DNA of 64,000 nt, taken from positions 310,001 to 374,000 of the forward strand of contig CCRI01000001.1 of NCBI GenBank assembly GCA_000985875.1, written 5' to 3'. Under the pieces are notes generated by a model. The model worked only from the letters and a program-made list of their open reading frames with translations, did not search any database and had not been told where the DNA came from. This DNA comes from Neorhizobium galegae bv. officinalis (GTDB lineage Bacteria; Pseudomonadota; Alphaproteobacteria; Rhizobiales; Rhizobiaceae). The translations under genes were made by a program, and so were the position numbers. Below are positions 58,260 through 59,987 of the stretch, piece by piece (the stretch's first letter is position 1; the number at the start of each line of letters is the position of its first letter).

Positions 58260-58332
58260 GGTGTCCTCCATTTATCGAGTCGCGATACGCTGATTTGCTC
58301 GCGCAACCAAACAAGTACTAATATTGGGTCAG

Positions 58333-58349
58333 TAGGCGATCTGTGCCTA
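58333..58349. promoter_or_regulatory. Inverted repeat upstream of the radical-SAM gene
   Basis: TAGGC-N7-GCCTA in the leader, about 60 bases ahead of the start codon. Immediately upstream lies a promoter-like pair: TTGCTC at 58295-58300 and TAATAT at 58319-58324 (18-base spacer). The repeat may be an operator over the transcription start. Only weak statistical weight. Confidence 0.35.
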
Positions 58350-58408
58350 TTGACGATCTCTCCCTAAGGTTGCATTCTTTTGTTTCGAAATATTTCATTG
58401 GGGGAGAC

Positions 58409-59302
58409 ATGACTACTATTATACGAAAACTCTCTAGCGAAATCGATCAATCCTTAAATTTTGTATTTCCATCCGGATCCGGATCCTATTTTGAAGCGCG
58501 GCTTGTGTTGCGAGATGGACATAAAGCAGTAGTATATATTTCATCTCAAGATGGTTGTTCTCAAGGTTGTAGGATGTGTTACCTTACGAGTTTGCGCCAA
58601 AAAAAGATGACTAACGCTATGCTCGAAGATATTTTATTTCAAGCTGAAACGGTAATATCTGCTCTTCTGGATTTAGACATTGCAGTAAAGAATTTGCACT
58701 TTAATTTTATGGCTAGAGGAGATGTTATTAGCAATATTGATCTGGTTCGATCATGGAGTGATGTCGAGCTTGGTCTTTCTTCCTTAGCTCAGAGAAAGAA
58801 TATTTCTGCAAATGCAGCCATCTTAGTCTCAACGATTTTTCCCAAAAAGATTGGATTCGAGTATATCGAGAATTTATTTGAATCAAGGATTACTAATATA
58901 TACTATTCTTATTACTCAAAGAAGGATTCATTTAGAAGGCGTTGGCTTCCAAATTCCCAATCTGTAGAGGAATCCTGTCTTTTTTTGAAAAAATTTCACG
59001 AATCTTCTGGAAAGAGGCCTAGATTTCATTTTTGTTTTATTGACGGCCAGAATGACTCTATGGAGGATCTTGATGATTTAATTGATGTGGCATCGGATTT
59101 TTCTCCTTTTTTTGATGTCAATATTGTTCGTTTTAATCCTCCCCCTGGATCAAATTATGCCGAAAGCCCTGAGGAAAGAGTTCTCAAGAACGTGGAATAT
59201 CTGCGCAAATATTTGCCAAGCTCAAATGTAAAAATAATATCGAGGGTTGGATATGATGTTAAAGCCTCATGCGGGATGTTCTTGGAGGATGTAAATGTTT
59301 GA
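58409..59302 (+). CDS. Short RlmN/Cfr-like radical-SAM protein
   Basis: 297 residues. The cluster motif VYISSQDGCSQGCRMCYLT puts Cys50, Cys54 and Cys57 in CX3CX2C, and its ISSQxGCxxxC context is that of RlmN and Cfr, the enzymes that methylate C2/C8 of A2503 in 23S rRNA or A37 in tRNA. At the C-terminus GYDVKASCGMFLED (Cys288) matches the R-x-x-G-x-D-I-x-A-A-C-G-Q-L motif, whose Cys carries the methyl group in RlmN. RlmN proteins are about 350-400 residues; this one lacks their N-terminal helical accessory domain. ATG at 58409 follows GGGGGAG; an upstream GTG start is less likely. Its 3' end overlaps the next gene by eight bases. Substrate unknown: RNA methylation is the family precedent, another target is possible. 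Confidence 0.8.
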   Translation: MTTIIRKLSSEIDQSLNFVFPSGSGSYFEARLVLRDGHKAVVYISSQDGCSQGCRMCYLTSLRQKKMTNAMLEDILFQAETVISALLDLDIAVKNLHFNFMARGDVISNIDLVRSWSDVELGLSSLAQRKNISANAAILVSTIFPKKIGFEYIENLFESRITNIYYSYYSKKDSFRRRWLPNSQSVEESCLFLKKFHESSGKRPRFHFCFIDGQNDSMEDLDDLIDVASDFSPFFDVNIVRFNPPPGSNYAESPEERVLKNVEYLRKYLPSSNVKIISRVGYDVKASCGMFLEDVNV

Positions 59303-59981
59303 GATATTCAGGCGTGATGAAGTGATTAATAATGTAGCTAAAGGAATCTCATTTAAAGACCTAGGGCATGATCATCTGAATGACAAAGATATCGCTTGGT
59401 TCGATCTTCATGTATCACCATCTGCTTACAAGCTTCCGGACCCCTTGGAGCAGGAGCCTTGGCGTGCATTTGAAAAAGTCAGAAACGGTGGAAGTCGCTT
59501 TGTTACTATAAGGCCTGGTGAGTCCCTTATTCTGCAGACGCACCAGATTATAAAAACTGCTTCGGATATCACTGGTATAGTTGTTGGGTCGGCCGGCTCC
59601 AGCATAAGAGGGCTGTCGGTCACGTCAGGGAAAGTAGATCCAAATTTCGGACCGCAAAGCTTAGCTGTGAATGTGTATAATGGGTCACAGAGGGATATTT
59701 ACATCAATGATGGTGATAAGATTGCTGTCGTCGGATTTATAAAGACGTCAAGGCCCGTTGATAATGAAAAAGTCGTCGGCCCCGCCAAGGCGGCGGAAGA
59801 TTTCCTGCCGGAATGGATCTACAGGGTATTTGCTAAAATTAAATCCTTTTTTAGGAGATATAGAAGCCTTTCTATATGGTCTGTTATTTTGTATATTGTA
59901 ATTTTGCTTACGCAAGCTCAGGTGCGTAGCTGGGCAGATAGTGTTTGGGGCTGGATCTCAGGTTTTTGGAACGTGCCGTGA
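59295..59981 (+). CDS. dCTP deaminase/dUTPase-fold protein with C-terminal membrane helix
   Basis: 228 residues. Residues about 30-155 resemble the trimeric Dcd/dUTPase beta fold: FDLHVSPSAYKL, FVTIRPGESLILQTHQII, the loop GSAGSSIRGLSV at 98-109 (counterpart of the RSSLARLGL motif), KVDPNF at 113-118, then LAVNVYNGSQRDIYINDGDKIAVVGF. E. coli Dcd uses Ser111, Arg115 and Glu138; here the Ser pair and an Arg exist with shortened spacing, but the Glu position appears to be Asn126, so deaminase activity is doubtful. After a linker, residues about 193-209 (IWSVILYIVILLTQAQV) form a membrane helix preceded by a basic stretch (FFRRYR), giving a cytoplasmic domain tethered to the inner membrane. Codon usage is AT-rich. 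Function not established. Confidence 0.65.
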   Translation: MFEIFRRDEVINNVAKGISFKDLGHDHLNDKDIAWFDLHVSPSAYKLPDPLEQEPWRAFEKVRNGGSRFVTIRPGESLILQTHQIIKTASDITGIVVGSAGSSIRGLSVTSGKVDPNFGPQSLAVNVYNGSQRDIYINDGDKIAVVGFIKTSRPVDNEKVVGPAKAAEDFLPEWIYRVFAKIKSFFRRYRSLSIWSVILYIVILLTQAQVRSWADSVWGWISGFWNVP

Positions 59982-59987
59982 GTTCTC

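Follow-up and report, generated by a model that had tools for sequence, protein, structure and literature searches.

A horizontally acquired AT-rich cassette in Neorhizobium galegae bv. officinalis encodes an RlmN/Cfr-like radical-SAM protein lacking the Cys118 equivalent and a probable membrane-anchored, non-catalytic Dcd-fold protein

We analysed a 64,000-nucleotide stretch of DNA from N. galegae bv. officinalis (hereafter the window), which carries a foreign, accessory and horizontally acquired cassette of two genes. Gene 1 encodes an RlmN/Cfr-like radical-SAM (rSAM) protein and gene 2 a protein of the dCTP-deaminase (Dcd)/dUTPase fold. The most solid new point, taken from sequence alignment, is that the cysteine equivalent to Cys118 of RlmN is lost across the whole gene 1 subfamily. 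As to function, we tentatively regard the cassette as an accessory operon that entered by horizontal transfer at a small variable site behind a helicase gene, with phage conflict (defence) as its most likely role. Such an accessory defence-like module is the likeliest reading, and two unrelated accessory genes are nearly as likely.

The cassette consists of two plus-strand ORFs that overlap by 8 bases and are flanked on both sides by minus-strand ORFs in the ORF list of the window (Table 1). From their sequences, we take the left flank gene to be oxidoreductase-like and the right flank gene to encode a UvrD/PcrA-like helicase. The GC content is 0.367 for gene 1, 0.444 for gene 2 and 0.401 for the cassette from 58409 to 59981, compared with a mean of 0.628 (SD 0.021, minimum 0.570) over the rest of the 64 kb, measured in 1180 overlapping 1573-base segments. 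The compact AT-rich cassette on the strand opposite to both neighbours, with its overlapping genes, had been pointed out in a first-pass annotation of the sequence and is confirmed here, at 40% GC versus 62.8%. Gene 1 is listed with a GTG start as 58343-59302 (319 aa), the GTG being located inside the leader. The ATG at 58409 is probably the start, judging by the sequence, and gene 1 was taken as 58409-59302 (297 aa) because this ATG is preceded by gggggag, which resembles a ribosome-binding site; family-model scans of gene 1 were run on the 319-aa (GTG) reading.

Table 1. Position and coding capacity of the cassette, its leader and the flanking ORFs in the window.
Feature	Position	Strand	Basis or remark
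Leader, AT-richer	58272..58408	+	GC 0.445; ends gggggag just ahead of ATG 58409
Gene 1, RlmN/Cfr-like radical-SAM protein, 297 aa	58409..59302	+	ORF and family models
Gene 2, dCTP-deaminase/dUTPase-fold protein, 228 aa, C-terminal hydrophobic segment ~192-210	59295..59981	+	ORF (ATG), Pfam
Left flank ORF, 337 aa	57258..58271	-	ORF list
Right flank ORF, 893 aa	59988..62669	-	ORF list

The host genome possesses its own housekeeping RlmN (393.9 bits), a two-domain Dcd and a further Dcd/dUTPase-fold gene, and the cassette is therefore an extra. The overlap and the common AT-rich composition of the two genes suggest that they form one operon and arrived together. Both cassette proteins were also run against PADLOC-DB 2.0.0 at E up to 1, and 0 families matched.

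RlmN/Cfr enzymes are radical-SAM methylases of 23S rRNA A2503 and tRNA A37. Gene 1 resembles them in its radical-SAM core, its CxxxCxxC motif and its equivalents of Glu105, Met176 and the methyl-carrier Cys355, but it remains far below the cut-offs of both family models, with 64.9 of 290 bits against TIGR00048 (RlmN model, E 6.2e-18) and 47.9 of 550 bits against rSAM_Cfr. Only 28 residues (50 with the GTG start) lie ahead of the Glu105 equivalent, versus 104 in E. coli RlmN (counted), which in the predicted protein leaves no room for the RlmN N-terminal helical domain. Gene 1 belongs to the same family as the jumbo-phage proteins of phrog_27142, described as 'Fe-S-cluster redox domain-containing', which it matches strongly from residue 26 to residue 315 when read as 319 aa (E 6.8e-76). 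The AlphaFold model of gene 1 is a confident one, with a mean pLDDT of 91.5 and a pTM of 0.90.

Relatives of gene 1 occur in jumbo phages that infect Pseudomonas, Caulobacter and Brevundimonas and on large plasmids from Pseudomonas, Miltoncostaea, Rhizobium, Acidiphilium and Acetobacter; the close phage and plasmid relatives are about 33-41% identical to gene 1. Scanning 84,980 species genomes gave 21 loci, and viral contigs gave 71 loci, some of which belong to these same phages. Within its own family, gene 1 was found in the window's genome only (297 genomes, E up to 1e-12), and a single-protein scan of genome contigs with the gene 1 protein gave nothing useful. From these sequence matches, the gene 1 subfamily is a sparse RlmN/Cfr-like radical-SAM group with members in jumbo phages, on large plasmids and in scattered bacteria. 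A recent capture from a known phage was rejected, since no sequence found exceeded 41-42% identity to gene 1. In 6 of the 10 annotated phage loci that were read (L015, L018, L019, L020, L021 and L022), a tRNA nucleotidyltransferase, RtcB, RNA ligase or tRNA gene is located within about 4 kb of the rSAM gene.

To describe the subfamily, we aligned 56 gene 1 sequences, namely the window protein, 19 of the 21 genome loci and 36 of the 71 viral loci, the partial L042 and L044 being excluded. An earlier alignment contained 19 sequences and had a reduced version without L017, L022 and L023. E29, C50, C54, C57, M101, R103 and C288 are kept in all 56 sequences, the window included, and position 43 is a tyrosine in 56/56. 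In a profile alignment to solved chains, Tyr43 aligns with Cys105 of Cfr and Cys118 of RlmN (RlmN numbering counted), so that every aligned member differs from RlmN/Cfr by Cys118 to Tyr and Met178 to Arg. The host's own RlmN, read in the same columns, has Cys at 43, Glu at 29 and Met at both 101 and 103. Among more distant phage proteins, L017 carries Cys and L023 Val in the Tyr43 column.

To resolve the protein-RNA crosslink, RlmN is described as needing Cys118 and Cfr as needing Cys105, both residues being essential for activity, and a C118A mutant of RlmN trapped the crosslink in a crystal structure (PMC9692996). In the same source, Cys355 of RlmN is the methyl carrier and Glu105 deprotonates the methyl group borne by Cys355 (PMC9692996). 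Taken together, the conserved residues and Tyr43 indicate that the subfamily retains the residues of the first half-reaction, while one residue of the second half is changed. Among the literature matches listed, which covered few subscription papers and no preprints, no Cys118-less RlmN subfamily is named. Gene 1 as a housekeeping RlmN or Cfr was rejected on three counts: the scores below the cut-offs, the absent N-terminal domain and the change of Cys118 to Tyr.

Gene 2 matched the Pfam dUTPase model above its gathering score (E 3.5e-8) and the Pfam DCD model below it (E 7.7e-5), and reached 29.4 of 92.8 bits against the dCTP deaminase model TIGR02274. Family-model matches therefore support both folds named in the first-pass annotation, the RlmN/Cfr-like radical SAM and the Dcd-like one. 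The membrane tether that it assigned to gene 2 is also found, as a single C-terminal hydrophobic segment (residues 192-210, mean hydropathy 1.9) preceded by a basic stretch. The catalytic residues of E. coli Dcd are E138 and R115, and dUTPases have five motifs, the C-terminal GFGSTG among them. Gene 2 shares with Dcd and the trimeric dUTPase (Dut) the fold family and the pocket Asp and Asn, but it differs from them in its added membrane segment and in lacking both sets of catalytic features: the Dcd catalytic Glu column is Asn and the Arg column Ile, whereas 9/9 canonical Dcd have Glu and Arg, and in an alignment read by eye dUTPase motifs 1 and 5 are absent and motifs 2 and 3 altered. The AlphaFold model is of moderate quality (mean pLDDT 74.3, pTM 0.48). 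From its sequence, gene 2 is probably a membrane-anchored, non-catalytic Dcd-fold protein.

Other proteins share this architecture. When aligned with the 9 canonical Dcd, 20/20 anchored Dcd-fold relatives prove to have lost the catalytic Glu and Arg, and the pocket-region Asp and Asn columns are kept in gene 2 and in all 20. Gene 2 has the features of this anchored group, that is, the Dcd fold, the C-terminal membrane segment and the loss of catalytic residues, and in a tree it groups with L293 and L296 (support 0.923). A profile of the anchored group built without the window protein gave gene 2 28.8 bits, versus 24.2 for a canonical dUTPase, and by score gene 2 is a weak candidate for membership. 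Gene 2 differs from the group in its radical-SAM partner and in two further pocket-region residues, with Ser where 20/20 relatives carry Arg or Lys, and Asn where 20/20 carry the Gly of DPG. The pocket is therefore more divergent in gene 2, which weakens the idea of nucleotide binding. The identity of gene 2 to the anchored relatives is 17-25%, and its Pfam score is higher for dUTPase than for DCD, the reverse being found for L003 and L004.

Anchored Dcd-fold proteins occur mostly on alphaproteobacterial plasmids and genomes. Plasmid records with such relatives numbered 19 in one search and 28 in another, and 7 regions were read. In the family, 2 weak matches were obtained besides the window's own (297 genomes). 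In the order, 19/397 genomes matched at E up to 1e-8 with a profile that included the window protein; the weaker matches are long frames that we take for ordinary Dcd. At class level, 10/385 genomes matched at E up to 0.01, own included, and the five best after it (L292-L296) share the architecture, with a C-terminal segment above the hydropathy cut-off in 4/5 cases. At phylum level 24/398 genomes matched, own included, and each of the nine loci read (L301-L309) has the GRSSLAR motif known from ordinary Dcd. The gene 2 protein yielded nothing useful in tblastn against plasmids and phages or in a single-protein scan of viral contigs.

The first-pass annotation had presented the two genes as a putative novel system. 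We searched the surroundings of 110 other rSAM loci (L006-L115) with Dcd and dUTPase profiles. These loci include some copies of one phage, and their flanks extend up to 6 kb and are sometimes ended by the contig. An anchored Dcd-fold partner was absent at all 110, so the pair is not supported as a recurring system, which is the outcome that the first-pass annotation had named as refuting it, and in this the cassette is unlike its phrog_27142 relatives; the pair as a widespread operon was rejected on the same count. Any Dcd/dUTPase-fold neighbour was found at 1/110 loci only, the viral contig L091, where an rSAM gene of the subfamily and a gene for a canonical dUTPase share 4 bases (L091:3995-5361). 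This overlap is suggestive but could be due to chance, because dUTPase is common in viral contigs: at least 595 of 600 candidate stretches encode a relative. Among the literature matches listed (few subscription papers and no preprints covered), the pair of an rSAM and an anchored Dcd-fold protein is not named.

Since the pair was not found elsewhere, the functional link between the two genes rests on the 8-base overlap and the shared composition. It is quite possible, although somewhat doubtful, that they are two unrelated accessory genes overlapping by chance. The rSAM protein would then modify tRNA or rRNA to the benefit of a mobile element, a role that its relatives in jumbo phages may also play, while the function of the anchored Dcd-fold protein would be a separate one. 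Besides the missing partner, this reading is favoured by the lack of a shared rSAM neighbour, as seen by eye across 29 loci (closely similar plasmids excepted), and by the RNA-processing or tRNA genes close to the rSAM gene in phages. The signs of a single operon in the window, and the rSAM-dUTPase overlap at L091, speak against it.

We then considered the setting of the anchored group by reading 21 loci (L116-L122, L143-L150, L154 and L310-L314), up to ~6 kb on each side. They cover part of the plasmid and order matches and are not independent, L116 and L143, for example, being close copies. By raw count, a UDG, MazG, 5-hmdU-kinase, dCMP-deaminase or ThyA-type gene is located nearby at 13/21 loci (L116, L117, L118, L120, L122, L143, L144, L145, L148, L149, L150, L154 and L314). 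The assignment was made by annotation for L118 and L120 and by likeness to L142 for L143, and the UDG of L154 is just below the gathering score. DUF1643 alone is nearby at four loci (L119, L146, L147 and L313), coaBC-type genes adjoin at two (L310 and L311), and nothing was recognised near the last two (L121 and L312). At L122:4467-9816, a dCMP-deaminase-like gene is divergent from the anchored Dcd-fold gene, and genes that seem to encode a Vsr nuclease and a methyltransferase acting on cytosine are close by. Directly upstream of the anchored gene, L145, L146, L147, L150 and L313 share a conserved protein of 184-194 aa, with an HDxRNHxDI-like motif in 4/5; a Pfam scan of the one from L150, the one scanned of the five, gave no match. 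Several of these neighbour types appear in the DefensePredictor study, which includes aGPT-Pplase, MazG, MazG-C and dUTPase among the domains predicted to act in defence but not validated, whereas thymidylate synthase and 5-hydroxymethyluracil kinase are among those that it newly validated (PMC13092281).

A different setting was observed for the nearest gene 2 relatives. L293 and L296 adjoin coaBC-type genes, a setting that is not defence-like: at L310:4438-7206 and L311:302-3106 the anchored Dcd-fold gene is located between coaBC-type and ThiF-like genes (the ThiF neighbour was assigned from a Pfam match at L310 and from the sequence alone at L311). The slot beside coaBC-type genes is the usual place of dut, and the anchored genes at L310 and L311 may therefore replace dut. 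This would fit gene 2 as a membrane-bound protein of nucleotide housekeeping or house-cleaning, e.g., a divergent dUTP- or dNTP-binding enzyme, with no conflict role. We consider this unlikely, as gene 2 lacks dUTPase motifs 1 and 5 as well as the residues used by Dcd in catalysis, the host genome already has Dcd and Dcd/dUTPase-fold genes, and the window gene lies outside the coaBC/ThiF slot. A dCTP-depleting or nucleotide-destroying defence effector, as the first-pass annotation had proposed, would agree with the Dcd/dUTPase fold of gene 2 and with dCTP deaminases being known defence proteins, but it is very improbable given the lack of a PADLOC match, the absent dUTPase motifs and the catalytic Glu to Asn and Arg to Ile changes, on which dCTP depletion was rejected.

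The tentative reading of the cassette as a defence module draws on its location. The 3' part of the helicase gene was matched in 40/40 genus genomes, and its 3' side is a variable insertion site. We surveyed 20 stretches (L185-L204) with heuristic gene calls and compared 19 of them, L197 in part and L198 in part at most. The left flank gene is recognisable at the site in 8/19 congener stretches. In G692, only 146 bp separate the left flank and helicase genes. The insert of G699 encodes an AT-rich SIR2 protein (PADLOC class PDC-S25, E 3.9e-74), that of G704 a YLATT + winged-helix protein (E 9.8e-19) and that of G713 an AT-rich DUF7946/DUF7947 protein; the remaining four of the eight have other DNA at the site. 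YLATT belongs to conflict systems. In G691, which has a different left neighbour, a HEPN-like protein was found just below the Pfam score.

Ten insert proteins, one per region, were hand-picked for scanning from the 20 regions. With Pfam, four gave the SIR2, YLATT, DUF7946/DUF7947 and sub-threshold HEPN matches, one was AAA-type and five had none, while PADLOC matched one of the ten strongly and two weakly (E above 0.001), the other seven having no match. Several congener inserts are GC-rich and ordinary-looking. These mixed inserts indicate a variable site with some defence-type cargo and not a pure defence island. The defence setting suggested in the first-pass annotation is thus upheld in part, by the SIR2/PDC-S25 and YLATT proteins of congeners and by the nucleotide- and base-chemistry genes near relatives of gene 2, with a site that is only partly defence-like.

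If the cassette is a defence module, its mode of action could be as follows. The radical-SAM protein would load a SAM-derived methyl group onto Cys288, with Glu29 acting as the base, and generate a methylene radical as in RlmN, which may add to a base of RNA or of a nucleotide. With Tyr43 in the place of Cys118, the adduct would be released differently or slowly, and the product or the substrate may differ from those of RlmN/Cfr. The Dcd-fold protein, as a non-deaminase retaining the pocket Asp and Asn, could bind a nucleotide or the product and act at the inner membrane as a sensor or effector. This would amount to a two-part immunity, in which the RlmN-like enzyme without Cys118 produces either a modified base or a protein-RNA adduct that is stable and covalent (compare RlmN C118A), while the dead, anchored Dcd-fold protein reads this product, or a change in the nucleotide pool, and has the membrane as its target. 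In this full form the scheme is a long shot.

What the cassette brings to light concerns two protein families. In the gene 1 subfamily of jumbo phages and large plasmids, every aligned member carries a tyrosine where RlmN needs Cys118 for the release of RNA. Moreover, the presence of deaminase-dead anchored Dcd-fold proteins near base-modification genes suggests that there is a class of nucleotide receptors which would escape searches aimed at active enzymes. If the two-part scheme were true, anchored dead-Dcd proteins would be a general receptor, paired with different base-chemistry enzymes in each element.
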